Below are positions 3,821-47,129 of a stretch of 60,932 bases of DNA, one piece after another (position 1 is the stretch's first letter; each line of letters begins with the position of its first letter). The notes under the pieces were generated by a model. It ran no database searches. It was not told the origin of the DNA and saw nothing but the letters and a program-made list of their open reading frames with translations. The translations under genes and the position numbers were made by a program. Source of the stretch: Burkholderiales bacterium (GTDB lineage Bacteria; Pseudomonadota; Gammaproteobacteria; Burkholderiales; Casimicrobiaceae); contig JADZAQ010000109.1 of the NCBI GenBank assembly GCA_020852555.1, forward strand, positions 1 through 60,932, read 5' to 3'.

Positions 3821-5251
3821 ATGCCCTTTGACGCCCCCCTGCCCGCCTTCGACCTCGCGGCCGATTACTGGTCGCTGCGCTTCGTCGAAGAGCGTGCCGA
3901 GCACTACGCCGTGCGCAAGAACATCCCGCTGCCGTTGACCACGGTAACCGATCGCGGGGTCATGGCCAGCGTCCATGCCGACGGCGGCTACGGTTACGCG
4001 GCAACGGGCGACACCAGTGCAGCCGGGATCCGGGAGGCGCTGGCGCGTGCCGCCGCCTGGGCCCGGGCAACGGCCAGGCTCGGCCTCGTCGATACCCAGG
4101 CGCTCCCCCGACCCGCGTCGCGCGGCGCCTACGCTTCGCCCGCCTTCGCAGTGGCCGGGCCGTCGCGCCGCGAGTGGTACGACCTCCTCGCCGCCGAATG
4201 TGCGGCGGCGACCCGCGATCCGCGCATCGCCGACGGCGAAGCCAGCGTCGAGGTCCGCACCGCGACGCATCGCCTCGTCACCAGTGCGGGCGGCGACGTC
4301 ACGCAGCGCTACCGCTTCCTGCTGCCGGGGTTGTCGGTGACCGCGCACGCCGCCGGGGTGACGCAGACGCGCTCGCTCCACGGCTTTCGCGGCATCTGCC
4401 AACAGGGTGGCGTCGAGGTCCTCGCCCGCTTCGGCTTCGTGGGTGCCGGCGAGCGCATCGCGGCCGAGGCGGTCGAGTTGCTCACCGCGCCACAGTGCCC
4501 GAGCGGTCCGCTGGACGTGCTGCTCATGCCCGACCAGATGATCCTGCAGATCCACGAGTCGATCGGGCATCCGCTGGAGCTCGACCGGATCTTGGGTGAC
4601 GAGCGCAACTTCGCGGGGACGAGCTTCGTGACGCTCGCCATGTTCGGCAGTTACCGGTATGGCTCGCCGCTGCTCAACGTGACCTTCGATCCCACGCGCC
4701 CGGAGGAACTCGCGAGCTACGCCTTCGATGACGACGGCGCGCCGGCGCAGGAAGAATATCTCATCCGCGATGGCCTCCTCGTCCGGCCGCTCGGCGGGGC
4801 GATCTCGCAGGTCCGTGCCGGCCTTCCGGGAGTCGCCAACAGCCGCGCCGACAACTGGAACCGCCCACCGATCGACCGCATGGCGAACCTCAACCTCGTG
4901 CCGGGCGACGCGTCCTTCGCGGACCTCGTCGCCGGGATCGAGCACGGTGTGCTCATGGAAACCAACTGCAGCTGGTCGATCGACGACTCGCGCAACAAGT
5001 TCCAGTTCGGCTGCGAGCGCGCCCGGGTGATCGAGCACGGCATCGCGAAGCACGTGGTGAAGAATCCCAACTACCGCGGCGTCTCGGCGAGCTTCTGGCG
5101 CAGTCTCGCCCGCGTCGGCGATGCCGACACCCTGCGCGTCCTCGGCACGCCGCATTGCGGCAAGGGCGAACCGTCGCAGGTGATCCGCGTCGGGCACGCC
5201 TCGCCCGCGTGCGTCTTCACCGGCGTCGACGTCTTCGGCGGCGAAGGCTGA
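3821..5251 (+). CDS. tldD: TldD-family metalloprotease
   Basis: 477 aa from the ATG at 3821; a TTG nine codons upstream is in frame but less likely. The zinc-site motif HExxxH is present (IHESIGHPLELDR; H245, E246, H250). The C-terminal cysteine ligand lies in PHCGKGEPSQ (C446), as in TldD. TldD forms a heterodimer with TldE/PmbA and degrades unfolded or small peptides; in E. coli the pair matures microcin B17 and degrades the CcdA antitoxin. The next gene, 25 nt downstream, is the TldE partner. The pair lies between two PIN-type toxin-antitoxin operons. Confidence 0.9.
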   Translation: MPFDAPLPAFDLAADYWSLRFVEERAEHYAVRKNIPLPLTTVTDRGVMASVHADGGYGYAATGDTSAAGIREALARAAAWARATARLGLVDTQALPRPASRGAYASPAFAVAGPSRREWYDLLAAECAAATRDPRIADGEASVEVRTATHRLVTSAGGDVTQRYRFLLPGLSVTAHAAGVTQTRSLHGFRGICQQGGVEVLARFGFVGAGERIAAEAVELLTAPQCPSGPLDVLLMPDQMILQIHESIGHPLELDRILGDERNFAGTSFVTLAMFGSYRYGSPLLNVTFDPTRPEELASYAFDDDGAPAQEEYLIRDGLLVRPLGGAISQVRAGLPGVANSRADNWNRPPIDRMANLNLVPGDASFADLVAGIEHGVLMETNCSWSIDDSRNKFQFGCERARVIEHGIAKHVVKNPNYRGVSASFWRSLARVGDADTLRVLGTPHCGKGEPSQVIRVGHASPACVFTGVDVFGGEG

Positions 5252-37900: not shown

Positions 37901-39184
37901 TCAGCCGTCGAGCGCGGCGCCCATCTCGATGCGCACCGTATCCGCCCACACCTCCCGGTTCTCGACCGGGTCGACCACCGCGATCTCGGTGGCGCCGTCG
38001 TCGACCTCCCGCTCGAGGATGCGCCACACCGGCGGCAGACGTACGCCGAGCGAGCGGTTGAACACCCGCGGCAGCACCTCCGATTTCATTCGATAGTCGA
38101 GGTCGCCGAAGAAGACGCCGCGCCAGCGGGCGTCGGCGCCGTTCGCCGACAGGTCCGCGGCCCAGGTATCGATGGGCACCCAACCGACGTCGTCGAACCA
38201 CGCCTCGAGCCACCAGTGATAGCCGGCGCACTCGGGATACAGGAGATAGCCGCTCACCCGGCGCGCCGGAATGCCGGACACGCGACACAGCGCCGCGACG
38301 AGCGCGCTGCCCAGCCGGCAGTCGAACCACCCGCCCTCCCGCGGCAGATCGAGCGGCGCACGCGCATCGAGCCATTCGTAGGGAAAGGGGCCGGCCGTGA
38401 ACCCGTCCAGCAGGTAGTCGAGGAAACGGCGCACGCGCTCGCGGGCTCGCACCACGCCACGGCAAAGATCTGCGGCGAGCGCGGCGAGCGAAGGCGTCAC
38501 CTGAATGAGTTCCTCGGCGTGCCGCAGATACCGCTCGCGCTCGGCCGCGAGCAGCGGCACGACCTCGCGCGGCGGCGAATACGCGTGTGCGACAAACGAA
38601 ACGCGCACAGCGAGCGTAACCGGCCGGTCCGGCGTCTCGGCGAGGCGCAACTCCGCGCAGCCCGGCGCGGTGCGCCATTCGCCGGCAGCGTCGACGGGTT
38701 CCAGCGTGACCTCGAGATCGCCCAGCGCATCGTCGGCATAGGGCAGCGGCAAGCGCAGGCGGGCGGGCGCTGCGAGGTACGCGGGATGGAAGCGACGGCG
38801 CAGCGCGACCGTGAAGCGGCGCGGCGGCAATGCCGACATCGACGGCGGCGCTTCGCGCGGGCCATCCGCAGGATGGAACGACAGCACGCGAGCGCGCTCG
38901 ATCGCCACGTGATGCTCGCGCCAGAAGGGATCGCCCTGCGTCCGGCCCGACCAGCGCTTGCATAGAAACACCTCCGCGGGGTCGTAGCGCCAGTTGCCGT
39001 CGCCGTCGCGCGCCGCCGGCAATCCGAGCGCGCGCCAGCGTGCCAGTGCCTCCACGACGACGCGCCGCGCCGCCTCGGGATCGGCACGGCGCGCCGCCCG
39101 CCGCCAGCCGTGGAAGACGAGGTGCTCGACGATGCGCGCCTCGGGCACGTTGCGATAGCACGACTCGGTCGCGAAGGGGAGCAT
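37901..39184 (-). CDS. Transglutaminase-fold protein 1
   Basis: 427 aa from the ATG at 39184. The C-terminal half carries a transglutaminase-like (papain-fold) core with a complete triad: Cys289 in GGWFDCRLGSALVAALC, His323 in YHWWLEAW and Asp339 in GWVPIDTW. The segment GIPARRVSGYLLYP is diagnostic. The N-terminal 200 residues are a shared domain of unknown function (NVPEARIVEHLVFHGWRR, then ALARWRALGLP). The protein has no signal peptide, so it acts in the cytosol, possibly as an amide-bond-forming or peptide-cleaving enzyme. The paralogue lies 33 nt upstream. Confidence 0.82.
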   Translation of the reverse strand: MLPFATESCYRNVPEARIVEHLVFHGWRRAARRADPEAARRVVVEALARWRALGLPAARDGDGNWRYDPAEVFLCKRWSGRTQGDPFWREHHVAIERARVLSFHPADGPREAPPSMSALPPRRFTVALRRRFHPAYLAAPARLRLPLPYADDALGDLEVTLEPVDAAGEWRTAPGCAELRLAETPDRPVTLAVRVSFVAHAYSPPREVVPLLAAERERYLRHAEELIQVTPSLAALAADLCRGVVRARERVRRFLDYLLDGFTAGPFPYEWLDARAPLDLPREGGWFDCRLGSALVAALCRVSGIPARRVSGYLLYPECAGYHWWLEAWFDDVGWVPIDTWAADLSANGADARWRGVFFGDLDYRMKSEVLPRVFNRSLGVRLPPVWRILEREVDDGATEIAVVDPVENREVWADTVRIEMGAALDG

Positions 39185-39217
39185 GGGGCTGCGCCGTGAC
39201 CGACGGCTCGGTGCAGG

Positions 39218-40515
39218 CTACGCGGCTAGGGTCTCGCCCAATTCGACGCGCAACGTATCCGTCCATACGACGTCGAGCGTCACCGCATCGATGAGCTCGG
39301 TACACATCGCGTCGCCCGCATCGCGCTCGAGCATCGTCCAATGAGCGGGCATCCGCACGCCGGGCGAGCCGGTGAAGACGCGGGGCAGGATGCCCACCTT
39401 CATGCGATAGTCGACCGCGCCCAGATAGGGAATCCACGCCGAGTCGCGCAGGACCGCCGACGTCTCGCCAGTCAACCCGTCGACCGCGATCCAGCCCTTG
39501 TCGTCGATCCACACTTCGGCCCAGTGATGGAAGGCCAGTGCGTCGGGGTAGAGGAGGTAGCCCGCCACACGCCGCACGGGCAGGCCGACCCCACGGCACA
39601 GTGCCGTGAAAAGCGCGGCCATCATCCGGCAGTCGTAGAAGCCGCGCTGCGGCGGGCCAGGGGGTAGCGCGGCGCCGAGCAGCGCATACGGAAACGCATC
39701 GCCACAGCGACGGCCCGCGACATAGACGTACAACGCGCGCACGCGCTCGATCGAGTCCACCACCCCGCGCGTGACCGCTCGCGCCGTCGCCACGATACCC
39801 GGCGTCACGCGCACCAGTTCCTCGTTGGGTGACAGGTACCGCGCGCGCTCTCGTGGATCGAGCGACGCCGGCGCATCCGGTGGCGGCGACGGATAGGCAA
39901 CGAACGAGTAGCGGACGCGAAGCGTCACCGGCGCGACCGGCGCCGCTTCGAGCCGCAGTTCAGCGTAACCATCGGCGAGGCACACTTCACCCGGCGCATC
40001 GCACGGCGGATCGAAGGCGACGGCAAGATCACGCAGCGCCGCATCGACCATCGGAACCGGCAGACGCAGCCGGGCATTTCGACCCACCCACGCTGGCTCG
40101 AAGCGGCGCGTGATCGACACCGCGAGACGTCGCGGTAGCAGGGCCAACGGATCGGGGGTTCGATCACGCGACGTGCCGGGCGGATGCAACGCCAGGATGG
40201 CGGCGCGGGAGGTGACGAGGTGCTGCTCGCTCCAGAACGGGTCGACACCCTTCCATCCGGCGTAACGCATGACGATCGCCACCTCCGCTGCGTCGTAGCG
40301 GTGCGCGCGATCCCCGTCGGCCGCCGACGGCAAGCCCAGCGCGCGCCAGCGCGCCAGCGCGCCAGCGCCTCGCGCACCGTCCGCCGCACGCCCTCCGGGT
40401 CGCGCTCGCGGTCCGCGCGCCGCCACGCACGAAACGCGATACCCTCGATGATCCGCTCCTCGGGAATCGTGCGCAGCCGCGCGTCGGCATCGAAGTTGAG
40501 CCCCAGGCCATTCAT
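39218..40515 (-). pseudogene. Transglutaminase-fold protein 2, frameshifted at an 8-bp repeat
   Basis: The N-terminal part is read from the ATG at 40515 (MNGLGLNFDADARLRTIPEE, then REALARWRA). The rest is in another frame (LARWRALGLPSAADGD onward). The join is at 40343-40366, where GCGCCAGC occurs three times; with two copies, as in the neighbouring paralogue, the frame would be open over 430 codons. The downstream part keeps the triad (YDCRMMAALFTALCR, HHWAEVW, GWIAVDG). A shorter product could start at the ATG at 40426. This may be a pseudogene, a reversible slippage state or a sequencing error. Confidence 0.75.
40343..40366. repeat. 8-bp tandem repeat GCGCCAGC, three copies
   Basis: Three perfect copies, contiguous. 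Adding or losing one copy changes the frame by two nucleotides. The paralogue at 37901-39184 has about two degenerate copies at the same position and is in frame. Confidence 0.85.
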
Positions 40516-40521
40516 GCGCGC

Positions 40522-40938
40522 ATGATAACCTCGCGTCGCCACCCAGCGCCGACCCCTGCCCGTACGCTGCCCACGAGAATCGCCTTGCTGCTCGCCATCG
40601 AACTGCCTCGCCTCCACGAGCTCATGACCGCCGGCGTGGTCACCGCGGTGCACGTCACGCCCGGCACCATGCTGGCGCCGGGCGCGTCACTGGTCGACGT
40701 GCGCGTCGATCTGAGCGACGCCGCCGCCCAGGATTGCCCACCCGTGTCGTGGTTCCGCGTCGTCTGCGGCGAGCGTTGCGTGCTGCGCGCGCTGAACGCC
40801 GCCGAAGGCAGCGAATTCGCGCCCGGCGCGCGGATCGGACTGGCGAGCACGGCGGCAGACGAAGCCGCGACGGGCGACCCGGCGCGCGCGGCACGCTTGA
40901 CCATCGTGGGTATCGTCGGACCCGAGATCGAATGGTAG
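40522..40938 (+). CDS. Lysine-free lipoyl-like (barrel-sandwich) protein
   Basis: 138 aa from the ATG at 40522; a TTG at 40585 would give 117 aa starting LLLAIELPRL and leave room for a divergent promoter. The sequence AGVVTAVHVTPGTMLAPGAS, then LVDVRVDLS, and later FRVVCGERC and APGARIGLA, looks like two halves of a biotinyl/lipoyl hammerhead. No lysine occurs anywhere in the protein, so it cannot be lipoylated or biotinylated. It may be a structural or binding homologue. It is 31 nt upstream of the SGNH-like gene. Confidence 0.6.
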   Translation: MITSRRHPAPTPARTLPTRIALLLAIELPRLHELMTAGVVTAVHVTPGTMLAPGASLVDVRVDLSDAAAQDCPPVSWFRVVCGERCVLRALNAAEGSEFAPGARIGLASTAADEAATGDPARAARLTIVGIVGPEIEW

Positions 40939-40969
40939 CCGCCACCGGGCGACGCGCGATTCCCGCATC

Positions 40970-42328
40970 GTGAAGGTCCTGCCCCTCACCCTCGGCCGCC
41001 TGCTGCCGGCGACGACCGTGCTCCAGCGCTCGGGCGTGCGCTGGCTCGTTGCCGACGGCGCCCATTGCCGCGCCGGCGAGATCATTGCGTACTGCAACAT
41101 CGGGATGCGCGGCAGCGACCCGCTCCTGAAAGGGTCGCTCGCCGGCGAGCAACGCGACCTGCAGGTCGCCCTCGCCGTCACCGCGCCCGGCATCGTCCGC
41201 CGCGCCGCGAGCGCCTCGCGCGGCGGTTTTCTCGACCAGATGCAGTACTACGACACGTGGCGCGACGACGATGCGATCGGCACGCTCGACCTCGACGACG
41301 GCGCCAGCGCGCCCGGCGCGAGCTTCGAGCATCTCGTGTTCGCTGGCCATCGTGCGCTCGACATCGCCGAGGTCCGCACGGGTCTGTTCACCGGCTGGCA
41401 CGATCGCGCCCGCGTGTGGTGGGGCGACGCGGACACGCCGCACGGCACGCTCGCCTGTCTCGGCATCTGCGAGCAGCGCAGCATCGTGCGCGGCGAGGCG
41501 GGCGCCTTCCTCGAACTCTTCGCGGCGGTCCGCGGACCGGCGCACGTCGTCCACCATCCCGACGACGCGCTGGTGCCGGCGGCGCCTTTCCTCGTGCAGC
41601 AGATGACGCGCACGCCCGCGGAGTGCCGGGCGATCGAGGAGGACATCGCGCGCAGCTTCGCCAGCGGGCCGGTGGCGCCTGGTGGGCGCGATTTCATGAT
41701 GCTGGGAGCGATCGCCAATGCGCTTGTCCGCTCGCCGCTGACCGAGGTGCTCACCGTCACCTCGCCGGCCGGCGCCGCAACGGTGAGCCGCCCGGACGCG
41801 GTCCTGCTCTCGGTCCTGTCCGAATCGTCACTCCTGTTGCGACACAAGCGGCTCGGTTACTGGATGCAGGTTCACGGCTATCGCCTGAGCGAGACCGGAC
41901 CCGCATTCCACGCGTGGCTGCGCGCCAATTTCGAACAGGTGCGCCGCTCGCTCGCGGACATCGCGCGTGACCTGGGATTGCTGGCCGATGCGGTGCGCGC
42001 GCGGGGCACGACCGAGATCCTGGTGCTCAATGCCGTATCGACGCTGGGCACCGAGCAGGTGCAGTGCTATTCGTCGTTCACGCGACCGCTCGGCAAGACG
42101 CTCGGCACCGTGCGGGCGCGCGAAACCAATGCGATGCTGCACGACCTCGCTCGCACGCACGGCATCCGCATCGTGGACAACGACGCGCTCGCTGCCGAAT
42201 TCGGCGCCCGCCAGCACATTCCCGACCGTGTCCACTCGAGCGGTGCCCTGCAGCAGGCCACCCGCGACGAGATCGTGCGCCTTCTCCACGAGGCCGGCGT
42301 GCCGGGATTCGTGCCGCGGTCGCGCTGA
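40970..42328 (+). CDS. SGNH-like protein with N-terminal lipoyl-like segment
   Basis: 452 aa from the GTG at 40970. Residues 20-45 (VRWLVADGAHCRAGEIIAYC) resemble the core of a lipoyl/biotinyl domain without the lysine. The C-terminal 110 residues (EILVLNAVSTLGTEQVQCYS, RARETNAMLHDLARTHGIRI, and IPDRVHSSGALQ with D419 and H422) have the DxxH block V pattern of SGNH/GDSL hydrolases. They align with the SGNH-like protein encoded at 46305-47129. The middle region (60-330) is unassigned. Likely esterase or acyltransferase; the substrate is unknown. Confidence 0.65.
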   Translation: MKVLPLTLGRLLPATTVLQRSGVRWLVADGAHCRAGEIIAYCNIGMRGSDPLLKGSLAGEQRDLQVALAVTAPGIVRRAASASRGGFLDQMQYYDTWRDDDAIGTLDLDDGASAPGASFEHLVFAGHRALDIAEVRTGLFTGWHDRARVWWGDADTPHGTLACLGICEQRSIVRGEAGAFLELFAAVRGPAHVVHHPDDALVPAAPFLVQQMTRTPAECRAIEEDIARSFASGPVAPGGRDFMMLGAIANALVRSPLTEVLTVTSPAGAATVSRPDAVLLSVLSESSLLLRHKRLGYWMQVHGYRLSETGPAFHAWLRANFEQVRRSLADIARDLGLLADAVRARGTTEILVLNAVSTLGTEQVQCYSSFTRPLGKTLGTVRARETNAMLHDLARTHGIRIVDNDALAAEFGARQHIPDRVHSSGALQQATRDEIVRLLHEAGVPGFVPRSR

Positions 42329-42330
42329 GC

Positions 42331-42351
42331 GCGGGAGCAAGGCCCTCCCGC
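42331..42351. terminator. Bidirectional terminator hairpin
   Basis: A perfect stem GCGGGAG (42331-42337) / CTCCCGC (42345-42351) with a 7-nt loop lies between the convergent stops of the SGNH-like gene and the lipoyl gene. There is no long T tract. Confidence 0.55.
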
Positions 42352-42353
42352 CT

Positions 42354-42659
42354 TCAGGTCACCTCGAACTCGACGAGCATCGCGGCGAGATCGTCGGCCT
42401 GCGCGGGCAGCGGCTCGTCGGAATCGTCACCGACGATGGCGAGCGGACGCCCGAGGCGCTGCCAGTCGCCGGCCGGTGCCAGAACGCTGCGCAGGATACC
42501 GGCACGCGCCGCCCGCACCTCGACGACCGCCTTGTGCGTCTCCAGTTCGACGACGAGGTCGCCGGCGGCGAATGATTGTCCGGGCGCCACGTGCCATTCG
42601 AGCACGCGAAGCTCCTCGACGTCGTCGATGGGACCGGGCACGGCGAGCTGGTAGAGCAT
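42354..42659 (-). CDS. Stand-alone lipoyl-domain protein
   Basis: 101 aa from the ATG at 42659; the longer upstream frame is a shadow of the E1 beta gene. It is a single lipoyl domain: VLEWHVAPGQSFAAGDLVVE, then LETHKAVVEVRA with lysine 43 in the canonical ETxKA position, and GILRSVLAPAGDWQRLGRPL. Normal E2 proteins carry a lipoyl domain fused to an acyltransferase; here the domain is separate and no E2 catalytic domain is encoded nearby. It is expected to accept the acyl group from the E1 proteins encoded just upstream. Lipoylation itself is inferred. Confidence 0.82.
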   Translation of the reverse strand: MLYQLAVPGPIDDVEELRVLEWHVAPGQSFAAGDLVVELETHKAVVEVRAARAGILRSVLAPAGDWQRLGRPLAIVGDDSDEPLPAQADDLAAMLVEFEVT

Positions 42660-42687
42660 CGGGATCACTCGGCAGAAGGGAAAACGC

Positions 42688-43674
42688 TCAGGATAGCAGC
42701 GCGCGCACCGCCGCGCCGACGCGTGCGGCATCGGGCAGGCACGCCGCCTCGAGGATCGGATTCGACGACACCGGCGCGGGCAGCGCCGCAACGCGGGCGA
42801 CGCGAAAGGGCTCCCTGCCGCGTGCCTCGCGCACGCGTGCGGCCACTTCGGCACCCACGCCGCAGGTCGCCTGCCCTTCCTCCACCGTGACCAGCGCGCC
42901 GGTTCGCGTCACCGACATCACGAGCGTATCGACGTCGAGCGGCGCGAGGCTGCGCAGGTCGATCACCTCGCAGTCGACGCCTTCGCGCGCGAGTTCCTCG
43001 GCGGCGGCAAGCGCCACGCGCACCGTGTACGCGTGCGCGGCGATCGTCACGTCGCTACCCGCGCGCGCGATGCGGGCACGGCCGAACGGCACCAGCGCTT
43101 CCTCCGCCGGCAGCTCGCCCGCCGTCGGATACAGGCGCTTGTGATCGACGAAGAGCACGGGACCGTCGTGGCGCAGCGCCGACTTGAGGAGTCCGTAGGC
43201 ATCGGCCGCCGTGGCGGGCGCCACCACGACGAGCCCGGGTACGCTCATGAGCCACGCCTCGATGCACTGCGAATGCGCGACCCCCTGCCCGCGCGCACCC
43301 GCGGTCGCCTTGACGACGAGCGGCACGCGGAGCTGACCGCCCGTCTTGTAGCGCGCCTTCGCCGCGTAGTTGACGAGCGGATCGAGGCCGAGCATCAGGA
43401 AATCCATGTACGTGATACTGACGAGCGCCCGCACCCCGGCCGCGGCGGCGCCGACGCCGACGCCGATCATCGCCGCCTCGGCCACCGGAGCATCGCGGAC
43501 GCGCTGCGCGCCGTAGCGCTCGAACAGTCCGGTGAATTCCCGATACGCTCCGCCGAAGCGGCCGATATCCTGCCCGATGAGCACGAGCGCCGGGTCGCGC
43601 GCCATCTCCTCGCTCAACGCGCGTGCGATCGCCTCGCGAAAGTACACGCGCGTTGCCGCCGCGCCGCCCCTCAC
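42688..43674 (-). CDS. 2-oxoacid dehydrogenase E1 component, beta subunit
   Basis: 328 aa from the GTG at 43674, overlapping the E1 alpha stop by 4 nt (GTGA). Transketolase-like pyrimidine-binding and C-terminal domains are seen: YFREAIARALSEEMARDPAL, IGQDIGRFGGAYREFTGL, VRDAPVAEAAMIGVGVG, YMDFLMLGLDPLVNYAAKAR, and VVVAPATAADAYGLLKSALR. These are features of PdhB/AcoB/BkdA2 proteins. With the alpha subunit it forms the ThDP-dependent decarboxylase that reductively acylates a lipoyl domain. The 2-oxoacid is not predictable. Confidence 0.9.
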   Translation of the reverse strand: MRGGAAATRVYFREAIARALSEEMARDPALVLIGQDIGRFGGAYREFTGLFERYGAQRVRDAPVAEAAMIGVGVGAAAAGVRALVSITYMDFLMLGLDPLVNYAAKARYKTGGQLRVPLVVKATAGARGQGVAHSQCIEAWLMSVPGLVVVAPATAADAYGLLKSALRHDGPVLFVDHKRLYPTAGELPAEEALVPFGRARIARAGSDVTIAAHAYTVRVALAAAEELAREGVDCEVIDLRSLAPLDVDTLVMSVTRTGALVTVEEGQATCGVGAEVAARVREARGREPFRVARVAALPAPVSSNPILEAACLPDAARVGAAVRALLS

Positions 43675-44597
43675 TGCACGTCTTCCAGGACCGATGCGCT
43701 TGCGGGATACGCGGCGGCGTCGGCGAACGCGAGCGCGGCTGCCGCCGCGACGCGCGCTTCCTCGTCCCAGGCGGCGAGGCGTGCCGCATCGAGCTCGCCG
43801 CGCGCCTGCATCCGCCGCGCCTGCGCGACGATCGGATCGCGCGCGCGATCGGCGGTGAGCTCGTCGGCCGCGCGCGTCTCGCGGGTCGACGTCGAGTGCG
43901 TCGCGAAGCGTGCCGAGCGGCACTCGAGAAACGCCGGTCCCTCGCCGCTGCGGATGCGCGCGGCAAATGCCACCGCCGCATCGCGCACCGCCTCGACGTC
44001 CATACCGTCGACGGTCATTGCCGGGATGCGAAACGGCTGGGCGAGCGCGGCAAGCGGTTGCGGCGCGAGCGCCATCGCCTGCGGCGTGCTGATCGAGTAG
44101 CCGTTGTTGTCGCACACGAGGAGGAGCGGCAGGCGCCATACCGCGGCGATGTTCAGCGTCTCGTGCAGCGCGCCCGCGCCGCAGGCGCCGTCGCCGAACA
44201 TGCACGCCGCGATCCCGCTGCCGCGCTGCGCGAGCGCGAGCGCCACGCCGGCGGCAATGGTGAGGTTCCCGCCGACCACCGCGTGCGCGCCGAAGAAGCC
44301 TGCCGCCGGTCGTGCGAGATGGCCGCGCCCGCCGCGCCCTCGATTGGTGCCTGCCTCCTTGCCGAGTAATTCGGCCATGACCGCGCCCGGATCGAGGTCG
44401 CGCGCGAGTGCCGCCGCGATCGAGCGGCCGCTGGTCAGGAGCTGGTCGTCGGGACCGAGCGCGGCGCACACGCCCACCGCCACCGCCTCCTGGCCCATCG
44501 AGAAGAGCTGGAAGCCGTGATCGGGCCGCTTGGCGAGCGCTTCCTCGAATGCCCGGATGCGCTGCATCGCGCGCAGGCGCGCGGCCGGTGTCGTCAT
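43671..44597 (-). CDS. 2-oxoacid dehydrogenase E1 component, alpha subunit
   Basis: 308 aa from the ATG at 44597, overlapping the SGNH-like gene by 4 nt. The ThDP-binding motif is GDGACGAGALHETLNIAAVW (135-154) ending with DNN (163-165), and GRGGRGHLARPAAGFFGAHA is the E1 alpha loop with its His. HSTSTRETR replaces the usual phosphorylation loop. It resembles PdhA/AcoA. The operon order (SGNH, GT2, SGNH, E1 alpha, E1 beta, lipoyl) argues for a biosynthetic rather than a central metabolic role. Confidence 0.9.
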   Translation of the reverse strand: MTTPAARLRAMQRIRAFEEALAKRPDHGFQLFSMGQEAVAVGVCAALGPDDQLLTSGRSIAAALARDLDPGAVMAELLGKEAGTNRGRGGRGHLARPAAGFFGAHAVVGGNLTIAAGVALALAQRGSGIAACMFGDGACGAGALHETLNIAAVWRLPLLLVCDNNGYSISTPQAMALAPQPLAALAQPFRIPAMTVDGMDVEAVRDAAVAFAARIRSGEGPAFLECRSARFATHSTSTRETRAADELTADRARDPIVAQARRMQARGELDAARLAAWDEEARVAAAAALAFADAAAYPASASVLEDVQ

Positions 44598-45226
44598 GAA
44601 TCACGCATCGGCAGTGCATCCCACGGCTGACCGATACGCGCCTCGGCGCAGCTGGCGACCTCGACCGCGATGCTCTCGTCACGGGCGAGCGCGAGCAGGC
44701 TGCGCACCAGCGTGCGCGCAGCCACCTCGATCGCGGCGTCGCTGCCGAAGCGGCAGTCGCTCGCCAGCGCTCGCGCGCCGACGTGCGCGAGCGTACGATC
44801 GAAGTCGATCACGTGCGCGCCAGTGTCGTGCGAGATCTCGATCGCCACCAGCGCGAGGCGCCGGATGCGTTCGCGCAGCGCTTCGCGCTCCACCACCGCC
44901 AGCGCCGGATCGACGTGGCGGAAGATCGTGCACACGAGCAGCGGCGGATGGCTCGCCGGCCACGCCGCGAGCACCTCGCGCCAGCGCTGCTCGACGGCGG
45001 CCACCGGCTGCGCGCCGGCGAGTTCGGGCAGCAGCGAGGCCACCGCGTAATCGGGCGCCGGCGCCAGTGCCGCGACCGCCGCAACGCCGGCGACAAACTG
45101 CGGCACCACCTCTACCCCGTCGTCCCCGCACGCCCGCAACGCCGTCTCAAGCAGCGCCGCTGCGCGCCGCACGACCGGCTCCTCGCAAGCGTCGACGGCA
45201 GCCGCCACGACGAGCCGGCGGTTCAT
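44594..45226 (-). CDS. Degenerate SGNH-like protein
   Basis: 210 aa. The C-terminal part (LLVCTIFRHVDPALAVVERE, RRLALVAIEISHDTGAHVID, FDRTLAHVGARALASDCRFG) aligns with the other two SGNH-like proteins of the cluster. The position of the block V histidine is phenylalanine (DCRF in place of DxxH), so hydrolase activity is unlikely. It overlaps both neighbours by 4 nt. It could be a structural partner of an active SGNH enzyme. Low identity makes the fold call tentative. Confidence 0.6.
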   Translation of the reverse strand: MNRRLVVAAAVDACEEPVVRRAAALLETALRACGDDGVEVVPQFVAGVAAVAALAPAPDYAVASLLPELAGAQPVAAVEQRWREVLAAWPASHPPLLVCTIFRHVDPALAVVEREALRERIRRLALVAIEISHDTGAHVIDFDRTLAHVGARALASDCRFGSDAAIEVAARTLVRSLLALARDESIAVEVASCAEARIGQPWDALPMRDS

Positions 45227-46308
45227 CGGACGCCTCCCGTCATTGCCGCCGGCGCCACCCGAGATCCGGTCGCCACACCCGGCGGAGCCGGAAGGCGTTG
45301 CAGACCGAGCCGGCGCCGCACCGCGTCGTAATCGACGCCACGCTCACCGCGCGCCGCGGCGGCGAGCGCGGGCAGCGACTCGATGCGCTCCGCCGGCGCA
45401 ATGAGGGCGTTGGCACCGAGGCTCGACCAGAATACGCAGAGGAGCTTCACCGCCGGCTCGGGATACTGCGCGTAGAACCTGCTCTCCCACGCGGTGTTCT
45501 GCAGCGGATCGCGCCAGCCGCGGCGGTGCGTCAGGTGGTAGGCGCGGGCATCGTCGAACGCCACCATGCGCGCGCCGCGCTTGACCATGCGCAGCGCGAA
45601 GGCGCGGTGCTCGTTGTTGTCGATGTCGTCGTGCAATCCTCCGGCTTCGACGAAGGCGTCGCGGCGGACCGAGAAATTGGCGCCGCAGGCCGCCGCCCAC
45701 AGCACCTCGCAATCGGGATGGTTGACGAGCGCATCGAGTTCGATGCGATCGAGAAGCTGCGGGCCGGCACCGGGATACAACCCCGGGCTCGCGCGCCGGA
45801 CGAGCCCCGCGAAATCGTCACGCAGCTCGGCGAGCGTCACCGCATTGCGCGCGCGCTCGGCCGCCGGCCAGCGCGCGACGGCCGCCTCCTCACCCGGTCG
45901 CGGCGTGCACGTCTGCGGATCGAGCAGGAAGCGTGTGCCGCGAAAGTGGAAGCGCCCGCCGCGACCCACGAGCACCGCGGTTGGCTGCGCCTCGTGTGCG
46001 ACCAGGTGCCGCTCGACCATGTCGGGCGCGGCCAGCGTATCGCCATCGAGGAAGATCAGCAGGTCGCCGGTGGCCGCGCGGGCGCCGGCATTGGAGGCAG
46101 CCGAGCGGCCCCGTGCAACGGGATGGCGGAGCGTGATCATCGCGAGCTCTCGCAGCGCGGCGGCGATGACGGCGCTGGTATGGTCGGAAGAGCCATCGTC
46201 GACGATCACCACCTCCGCCGGCACCGTCTGCTGCGCGAGGGAGGCGAGCGTGAGGCGCAGGCGATCCGCCTCGTCCTTGGAGCGGATCACCACGCTCGCG
46301 CGCATCAT
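45223..46308 (-). CDS. Family 2 glycosyltransferase
   Basis: 361 aa from the ATG at 46308, overlapping the SGNH stop by 4 nt; an upstream continuation is a shadow. GT-A features are RASVVIRSKDEADRLRLTLA, VVIVDDGSSDHTS, the DXD-like DGDTLAAPDMVERHL and GANFSVRRDAFVEAGGLHDD. The segment RAFALRMVKRGARMVAFDDA matches GT2 acceptor regions. It has no TM segment, so it should act in the cytosol on a nucleotide sugar and a soluble or membrane-attached acceptor. The acceptor is unknown. Confidence 0.9.
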   Translation of the reverse strand: MMRASVVIRSKDEADRLRLTLASLAQQTVPAEVVIVDDGSSDHTSAVIAAALRELAMITLRHPVARGRSAASNAGARAATGDLLIFLDGDTLAAPDMVERHLVAHEAQPTAVLVGRGGRFHFRGTRFLLDPQTCTPRPGEEAAVARWPAAERARNAVTLAELRDDFAGLVRRASPGLYPGAGPQLLDRIELDALVNHPDCEVLWAAACGANFSVRRDAFVEAGGLHDDIDNNEHRAFALRMVKRGARMVAFDDARAYHLTHRRGWRDPLQNTAWESRFYAQYPEPAVKLLCVFWSSLGANALIAPAERIESLPALAAAARGERGVDYDAVRRRLGLQRLPAPPGVATGSRVAPAAMTGGVR

Positions 46309-47129
46309 GCGTACATCCCACCCATCGGCACGCGCGCGTCGAAGCAGCCGAGGTCGTCGAGGACCCGCACCACTTCGACGGCGACCTGCCGCGCACCTTC
46401 GGCGCGCAGGTGGCGGGCATCGAGCTTGACGACCGCCGCACCGGCCCGCGCGACGATGGTATCGACGTCGATCACCGAGATCCCGATGCGTTGCGAGAGC
46501 TCGCACAAGGCGAGATTGAAGCGACGGATGCGCAGCGAGAGCGTCTCGCCCAGGCCGGCGTAGCAATGCACCGTATCGCCCGGCACCACCGACGACAGGT
46601 TGTACACGAGCACCGGCACGGCCCGGTGCGCGCGCAAGCGCGCGACGATGGTCTCCAGGCTGCGCATCGACGCTGCGGCATCGGGCAGCGGCGAGACCTC
46701 GAACGCGTCGTGCAGCCAGCGTCGGTCGGCTTCCGGCCAGTGCGGCCGGCCCTCGGGAAAGAAGAGGAAGCCCTCCTCGCGATGGCGCGCGAGACGGATG
46801 TACAGATCGGGCTGCAGCGAGAGGACCACGGCGTCGGCCGGCACCGTATACAGTGCGCCGCCGAACTGCGAGGCGAGGCCGTAATTGCCGAGTGCGAGCG
46901 AGCGCCGGGCCAGCGCTTCCGGGATCCGGCCATCGGCCGCGGCGAGCTGATCGAAACGCGCGCAGGTCTCGTGGCGCACCCGCACACTCCAACCAGGGTA
47001 GCGCTCGCGCACGATCTCGTTGATGCCGTTCCAGCAGAGGACGCCGTTCACGTGCTGCGAGTGCAGCGAGTCGTATACGTCGTGGTTGGCCTTCGCGAAC
47101 AGGGTGAGACGCACGCCAGCAGGCTCCAC
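46305..47129 (-). CDS. SGNH/GDSL-like protein
   Basis: 274 aa. The N-terminal segment VRLTLFAKANHDVYDSLHSQ, then VNGVLCWNGINEIVRER, takes the place of block I, with Ser21 in DSLHS. The C-terminal block V is KLDARHLRAEGARQ (D237, H240). The region LVYNLSSVVPGDTVHCYAGL, then RIRRFNLALCELSQRIGISV, aligns with the SGNH-like protein encoded at 40970-42328. No signal peptide. Probably a cytosolic esterase or O-acyltransferase acting with the glycosyltransferase and the lipoyl carrier. It is the first gene of the minus-strand operon. Confidence 0.7.
   Translation of the reverse strand: MEPAGVRLTLFAKANHDVYDSLHSQHVNGVLCWNGINEIVRERYPGWSVRVRHETCARFDQLAAADGRIPEALARRSLALGNYGLASQFGGALYTVPADAVVLSLQPDLYIRLARHREEGFLFFPEGRPHWPEADRRWLHDAFEVSPLPDAAASMRSLETIVARLRAHRAVPVLVYNLSSVVPGDTVHCYAGLGETLSLRIRRFNLALCELSQRIGISVIDVDTIVARAGAAVVKLDARHLRAEGARQVAVEVVRVLDDLGCFDARVPMGGMYA

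Follow-up and report, generated by a model that had tools for sequence, protein, structure and literature searches.

Lipoate is a cofactor of central metabolism, and the described systems nearest to the gene set reported here include the pyruvate and branched-chain 2-oxo acid dehydrogenase complexes, composed of an E1 (alpha2beta2), a lipoyl E2 and an E3. The gene set, a cassette of ten genes (A to J), lies at positions 37901 to 47129 of a 60,932-nucleotide stretch of contig JADZAQ010000109.1 from a Burkholderiales bacterium; this whole stretch is called the window below. With the dehydrogenase complexes it shares E1alpha and E1beta subunits with thiamine pyrophosphate (TPP) motifs and a lipoyl domain with its lysine. 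In contrast to these complexes, the cassette has no E2 catalytic domain and no E3, and it is distinguished by: (i) a stand-alone lipoyl protein; (ii) linkage to SGNH, transglutaminase (TG) and glycosyltransferase (GT2) genes; (iii) an E1 clade of its own.

Other described systems share single parts with the cassette. An andrimid transglutaminase homologue is said to be the subject of Fortin et al. 2007, and AdmF is presumably the same enzyme. An admF mutant line is mentioned in PMC5216899, and in PMC6772006 the transglutaminase CtaJ (closthioamide) is proposed to couple carrier-made chains. PMC4802897 proposes that Plm8/Plm9 (paulomycin) add a two-carbon chain to a sugar, and cites kosinostatin, yersiniose A and avilamycin for similar E1alpha/beta pairs. 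The CtaJ-type and andrimid enzymes share with the cassette a Cys-His-Asp transglutaminase core next to a carrier of the thioester type. In contrast to CtaJ-type thiotemplates, the carrier of the cassette is a lipoyl domain, and there is no nonribosomal peptide synthetase (NRPS), polyketide synthase (PKS) or acyl or peptidyl carrier protein (ACP/PCP); no PP-binding domain was found by Pfam among the ten genes at E≤0.1. The Plm8/Plm9-type pairs likewise stand beside glycosyltransferases, whereas the cassette also holds a conserved lipoyl carrier, a lipoyl-fold protein with a cysteine, and SGNH and TG partners. No account of this combination of genes was found in the literature searched. As a whole the cassette fits no family tested; each part belongs to a known family, although in two of the parts a cysteine stands in an unusual place.

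The cassette, its residues and its predicted folds are well established by the comparisons given below. Tentatively, with a chance slightly short of even, it is read here as a self-contained unit that would attach an acyl group to a sugar-bearing acceptor, the stand-alone lipoyl protein E serving as carrier in place of coenzyme A (CoA) or acyl carrier protein. The genes are as follows:

A, 37901..39184, minus strand: transglutaminase-fold protein 1, 427 aa, Cys289-His323-Asp339 (Pfam Transglut_core, 1.4e-14)
B, 39218..40515, minus strand: transglutaminase-fold protein 2, broken frame (Transglut_core, 3.1e-15; open homologue L021:8265-9554)
C, 40522..40938, plus strand: lipoyl fold without the lipoyl lysine, invariant Cys-Pro-Pro in a predicted hairpin loop (profile, model)
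D, 40970..42328, plus strand: beta-rich N-terminal part (possibly barrel-sandwich) and SGNH domain with Cys167, Asn354, Asp419 and His422
E, 42354..42659, minus strand: stand-alone lipoyl domain, lysine in (E/D)-T-(H/Y/N)-K-A (Pfam Biotin_lipoyl, 2.5e-12)
F, 42688..43674, minus strand: E1 beta subunit, catalytic Glu66 and His134 (Pfam Transket_pyr/Transketolase_C)
G, 43671..44597, minus strand: E1 alpha subunit, TPP motif G135-D136-G137 ... N165 (Pfam E1_dh)
H, 44594..45226, minus strand: degenerate SGNH-like protein (profile match to J, 98.4%)
I, 45223..46308, minus strand: GT2 glycosyltransferase (Pfam Glycos_transf_2, 1.5e-22)
J, 46305..47129, minus strand: SGNH-like protein, GNxD replacing GDS (profile match to D, 99.5%)

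All ten frames are present, and Pfam, profile and fold comparisons agree with the families proposed in the initial annotation, a reading of the DNA alone. The plus-strand genes had been called homologues of the lipoyl and SGNH modules, and the profiles bear this out, C resembling E and J resembling D. The expected arrangement is also found: C and D are convergent with E, and the transglutaminase genes A and B are divergent from C. The description of the six minus-strand genes E to J as one unit mostly joined by 4-nt overlaps stands: four of the five junctions overlap (J/GT2, GT2/H, H/E1alpha and E1alpha/E1beta, computed with start codons chosen by the analyst), and E1beta/E has a 28-nt gap. 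The start of C is uncertain, 40585 being a possible alternative to 40522. In Pfam, C has no match, and D, H and J remain below the family cut-off. For each of the ten there is an open homologue in a genome of the same genus (G006), with a nonsynonymous divergence (dN) of 0.087-0.242 and a synonymous divergence (dS) of 0.512-0.779, so that the genes appear to be under purifying selection.

Co-occurrence of the genes across genomes, the check set out in the initial annotation, was confirmed. The set recurs in 26 genomes including that of the window, mostly Proteobacteria by record title, with one Verrucomicrobia metagenome-assembled genome (MAG). According to family profiles, D is present in all 26 genomes, C and E in 25 each, J in 24, H, GT2 and TG in 23 each, E1beta in 21 and E1alpha in 20. 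With two exceptions (E1, lacking in four genomes, and the GT2 of G1276), the absences fall on cut contigs: L026, L030 and G1276 are cut, which explains why rows for TG, J, C and E are missing, and H is missing in G035 and G1304 where the contigs end. Duplicates were left out of the count (L024 = G025, L028 = G1304 C4, L025 = G1347 C47, L036 = G484, L032 = G481), as were weak matches in G970, G1085 and G1132. Twelve genomes (the window, L021, L023, L027, L029, L033, L034, L037, L090, L092, L093, L095) have the order C>D><E<E1b<E1a<H<GT2<J with no interruption, and three more (L031, L032, L035) have it except for E1, giving 15 of 26. Departures comprise GT2 located elsewhere (G025, G035), J located elsewhere (G1165), a different layout (G1276), glycan genes between TG and E (G484, G1232), and a distance of about 200 kb between C-D and E-H-GT2-J-GT2b-TG in G579, both halves being kept; the remaining loci are cut.

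In G006 the whole cluster stands between YfiH and ZIP-PhaC, as in the window, with raw per-gene identities of 63-82%; the 63% belongs to E1beta, for which the query was in the wrong frame, and the repeated comparison gave 85%. The cluster is also present in two genomes of another genus (G025, G035). A scan of genome contigs with two short peptide patterns, the locus count being a lower bound, gave at least 17 loci, three of them the contigs of G006, G035 and G025. Their titles include Burkholderiales, Aromatoleum, Bordetella parapertussis, Nevskia, Gammaproteobacteria, Acetobacteraceae (2), Caulobacter, Falsiroseomonas, Sphingomonas, Alphaproteobacteria, Novosphingobium (2), Methylocella, Gluconacetobacter, Acidobacteriaceae and Verrucomicrobia. 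The contig titled as a Bordetella parapertussis MAG (L024/L010, G025) looks misassigned, its genome belonging to the family of the window. Further genomes were drawn from the samples around N. lentum and G. tumulisoli that are given below. Strain records, by title, are Gluconacetobacter tumulisoli LMG 27802, Novosphingobium lentum NBRC 107847, Falsiroseomonas selenitidurans BU-1 and Methylocella silvestris TVC.

Within larger groups the distribution is sparse. Among 64 genomes of the window's family, 4 have D. Since only some candidates per genome were scored, the following figures are lower bounds: D in at least 1 of the 398 genomes that sample the phylum (that of the window itself) and at least 2 of 249 of the N. 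lentum family (N. lentum included); J in at least 4 of 385 of the G. tumulisoli class (itself included, two of the four weak) and at least 10 of 249 of its family (itself included, one weak). Genes outside the cassette are mostly not common to the loci, although one flanking family is shared by L027 and L037; ten flanking proteins checked in the other loci, one of them a sulfotransferase, indicated no common pathway. The Verrucomicrobia E1beta, known from one MAG, groups with that of Gluconacetobacter (support 99/96), as would be expected from transfer between phyla if the MAG label is right. Acidobacteria are not counted as shown, because the E1beta of L037 is nearly identical to that of L027, the flanking family is shared and one MAG label may be wrong; the two nearly identical clusters are labelled Acidobacteriaceae and Gammaproteobacteria, respectively, and one label or bin may be in error. 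No match was found in 72,556 plasmid records for D (E limit 1e-3) or transglutaminase 1 (1e-5), and six peptide patterns confirmed no relative of D in viral contigs. Overall the biosynthetic cassette is real and conserved, and it is probably mobile, having apparently spread horizontally.

The catalytic and TPP residues of the E1 pair are well kept: Glu66 and His134 of E1beta in 21 of 21 rows, and Gly135, Asp136 and Asn165 of E1alpha in 19 of 19 rows that cover them, two further rows coming from fragments. When 14 E1beta rows of the cluster and 7 others were placed in a tree, for which the program warned of long branches, the cluster E1beta sequences formed one clade (support 100/100). Of seven carrier genomes searched, the three with a cassette E1 gave the cluster copy, about 65-68% identical to the E1beta of the window; all seven have other E1beta-like copies at no more than 47%, and the seven other rows show 37.5-43.8%. 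An ordinary 2-oxo acid dehydrogenase complex, with its E2 core and E3 encoded elsewhere and standing beside unrelated genes, would agree with the canonical families of the E1 pair and the lipoyl domain and with the genome of the window, which has four E2 genes, all on other contigs, and five E1_dh genes including the one described. However, neither an E2 core (PF00198) nor an E3 was detected by Pfam among the ten genes, two other E1alpha genes of this genome lie on contigs that also carry an E2 gene (C120, C102), and the linkage to SGNH, GT2 and TG is conserved. The linkage, the separate E1 clade and the lack of a cluster E2/E3 ruled out such a complex as the leading interpretation, and it has very little probability; on this check too the outcome favoured the initial annotation.

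The lipoyl lysine of E (Lys43) is kept in 26 of 26 rows, including genomes without the cassette E1. This bears on the idea that the E1 pair attaches a C2 branch straight to a sugar, with the lipoyl proteins ancillary, for which the position of the pair beside glycosyltransferases speaks, as it resembles Plm8/Plm9 (PMC4802897). The lysine is kept even where E1 is lacking, E is more constant than E1, and neither deoxysugar nor nucleoside diphosphate (NDP)-sugar genes were found by Pfam among the ten, so that direct branching appears quite unlikely. As to single loci, G035 carries two copies of E, and an IS4/5-type transposase gene lies there between the transglutaminase gene and the second lipoyl gene (L011 6195-6976).

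Protein C had been described as lipoyl-like, and this stands for the fold. Its profile match to E is 96.9%, and 98.2% with 18 E rows, against 0.5% for a reversed control. The model of C has a mean predicted local distance difference test (pLDDT) value of 90.4, loop residues 41-50 being less certain (mean pLDDT 74), and lipoyl domains are on top of the solved structures closest to it by fold, with one match at E≤0.001. What C does not have is the hairpin attachment lysine, a cysteine being found instead: Cys-Pro-Pro occurs in 25 of 25 rows, with the cysteine (Cys51) in the model loop 43-53 between strands 35-42 and 54-61. Judged from the strand order of the model, this loop would occupy the place of the lysine hairpin of lipoyl domains.

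A second cysteine replacement was identified in D, where Cys167, Asn354, Asp419 and His422 are kept in 26 of 26 rows and G165 is invariant in 18 rows. In the model (pLDDT 85.2, predicted template modelling score (pTM) 0.88), G165-x-C167 is situated at the end of strand 159-164, ahead of helix 167-174, where SGNH enzymes have GDS. The Cys thus takes the site of GDS block I, while the Asn belongs to block III and the Asp-x-x-His to block V. By fold, the SGNH half of D resembles GDSL esterases and the thioesterase I (TesA) of E. coli, with three matches at E≤0.001; the alignments cover part of D, with query-normalised TM-scores of 0.2-0.3. Thus D shares the predicted fold, the Asn and the Asp-x-x-His with these enzymes, whereas it has a cysteine for the GDS serine and a fused beta-rich N-terminal part. 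Profile comparison aligns J with the C-terminal half of D (99.5%) and H with J (98.4%); J and H both differ from the esterases in lacking a nucleophile. In the GNxD of J, N and D are kept in 23 of 23 covering rows, and the block III Asn in 23 of 24; a solved-structure search with the J profile gave chance-level matches only. Neither the SGNH Ser nor the His of H was seen in 12 aligned rows. H has a C-terminal extension of about 70-90 residues in L033, L034, L036, L027 and L037 (279-300 aa, compared with 210 in the window).

The GT2 enzyme gave a partial NCBIfam match to EpsD, below the cut-off. No donor or acceptor can be named for it, because its similarity to several GT2 enzymes is only weak in a sequence search. 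A second GT2 (GT2b), absent from the window, is present in 11 of the 26 genomes, and a GT4 is added to the cluster in G025 and G035. Acetobacteraceae account for ten of the 26 genomes, as judged from titles or from the G. tumulisoli family sample (G484, G1347, G1304, L029, G1232, G1356, G1324, G1165, G1171, G1276). Six of these (G484, G1232, G1356, G1324, G1171 and, at 41% identity, G1165) have in the stretch a HAD-UbiA gene, whose product is a UbiA family prenyltransferase according to NCBIfam and resembles decaprenyl-phosphate phosphoribosyltransferase. Five of the six also encode two further proteins, one GT-C-like (DUF6798) and one ArnF-like; a Wzx-type flippase is present in three, and acyltransferase-3 and GT87 occur in one each. 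The HAD-UbiA neighbours (L101 7541-8980; L091-L095) suggest a polyprenyl-phosphate pentose pathway. For part of the Acetobacteraceae at least, the molecule made by the cassette would likely enter a glycan of the envelope or one that is exported.

The patchy distribution and unrelated surroundings would also suit a protein-modification or defence module rather than a small-molecule or glycan pathway. None of the ten proteins matches a PADLOC model at E≤0.001, by which an anti-phage defence system was rejected, and glycan assembly genes adjoin the cassette in some Acetobacteraceae; a module of this kind is highly unlikely.

All 25 rows that cover the Cys-His-Asp triad of the transglutaminase fold keep it; one more row is a fragment at the end of a contig. 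By sequence, transglutaminase 1 has no solved-structure relative at E≤1. Because the frame of gene B is broken in this assembly, 39218-40426 represents only its 3' part; the N-terminus begins at about 40515 in a different frame. The homologue in a related genome is open, and the break may be an assembly error or real decay. The enzymes bear on a pathway limited to esters, in which lipoyl-E would donate for O-acylation of a glycan by D as an SGNH acyltransferase, the TG-fold protein being a hydrolase or structural. Such a pathway would agree with the Asn, Asp and His of D, the cysteine at the place of GDS, the fold near esterases and thioesterase I, and the glycan neighbours in 6 of 10 Acetobacteraceae. 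However, since the triad is kept and 23 of the 26 genomes have TG, with cut contigs in the remaining three, TG is unlikely to be idle, and the ester-only pathway is considered unlikely.

For acyl transfer from a lipoyl carrier to a sugar-bearing acceptor, the chemistry and the product are inferred from families and kept residues. E1alpha/E1beta would decarboxylate a 2-oxo acid and reductively acylate lipoyl-E; in genomes without cassette E1, another, housekeeping E1 of the host may load it. The acyl group would then move from lipoyl-E to the cysteine of D, perhaps via C, and the transglutaminase-fold enzyme would form an amide, or D an ester, on the acceptor sugar or amine. CtaJ of closthioamide (PMC6772006), for which a role on chains bound to a carrier is proposed, gives a precedent for the transglutaminase step. 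The sugar part would be built by GT2 and, depending on the lineage, a second GT2 or a GT4. J and H, being paralogous SGNH-like proteins with no catalytic serine, are probably binding or scaffold subunits rather than catalysts. A related scheme, possible but doubtful, is thiotemplated assembly in which the lipoyl protein, loaded by E1 from a 2-oxo acid, would replace phosphopantetheine, and the cysteines of C and D would relay the acyl group to a TG amide synthase and glycosyltransferases.

A lipoyl-carrier pathway to an acylated glycoconjugate or small molecule had been proposed initially; one functional unit, the separate E1 clade and the glycan context in part of the Acetobacteraceae agree with it, and several observations speak the other way. 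E1 is absent from the cassette in 4 of 25 judgeable genomes (L031, L032, L035, G579), which are alphaproteobacterial by title or by the family sampled, and no cluster-type E1beta was found in the whole genomes of L030, L031, L032 and L035 (copies at no more than 47%). Ester chemistry by three SGNH genes was also claimed at first; the SGNH-type folds and profiles stood, but three active esterases are unsupported because J and H lack the SGNH catalytic residues and look degenerate, and D has Cys for Ser. The N-terminal part of D was rejected as a clear lipoyl domain, having a weak profile match only (12.5% to C and 5.1% to E, with 0.2% for the reversed control against E), although by sequence it may possibly be one. 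Proteins of the transglutaminase fold can also be proteases or deamidases. In G1276, H adjoins J with no GT2 between them. L027 and L037 are almost identical in E1beta, so the 26 genomes are not all independent. The glycan context is uneven as well: HAD-UbiA is absent from 4 of the 10 Acetobacteraceae stretches, two of which are cut short (G1304, G1276), and neither HAD-UbiA nor companion glycan genes occur in L029 (17.6 kb) or G1347/L025 (13.1 + 4.6 kb). The same neighbour search gave nothing in G994, the window or the other non-Acetobacteraceae loci.

If the proposed pathway is correct, lipoate is also the acyl carrier of a dedicated biosynthetic pathway, and 2-oxo acids enter amide or ester products directly, with no need of CoA, of activation by ATP or of acyl carrier proteins. 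It is a compact set of genes, is carried by strains on record and could be tested with four or five purified proteins.

Two further genes were observed beside the cassette in single lineages. In L029, one Acetobacteraceae MAG, a sulfotransferase-family gene (4228-4875) adjoins the transglutaminase gene. In the closely related loci L027 (16239-17606) and L037, a type I phosphodiesterase/nucleotide pyrophosphatase gene follows J.

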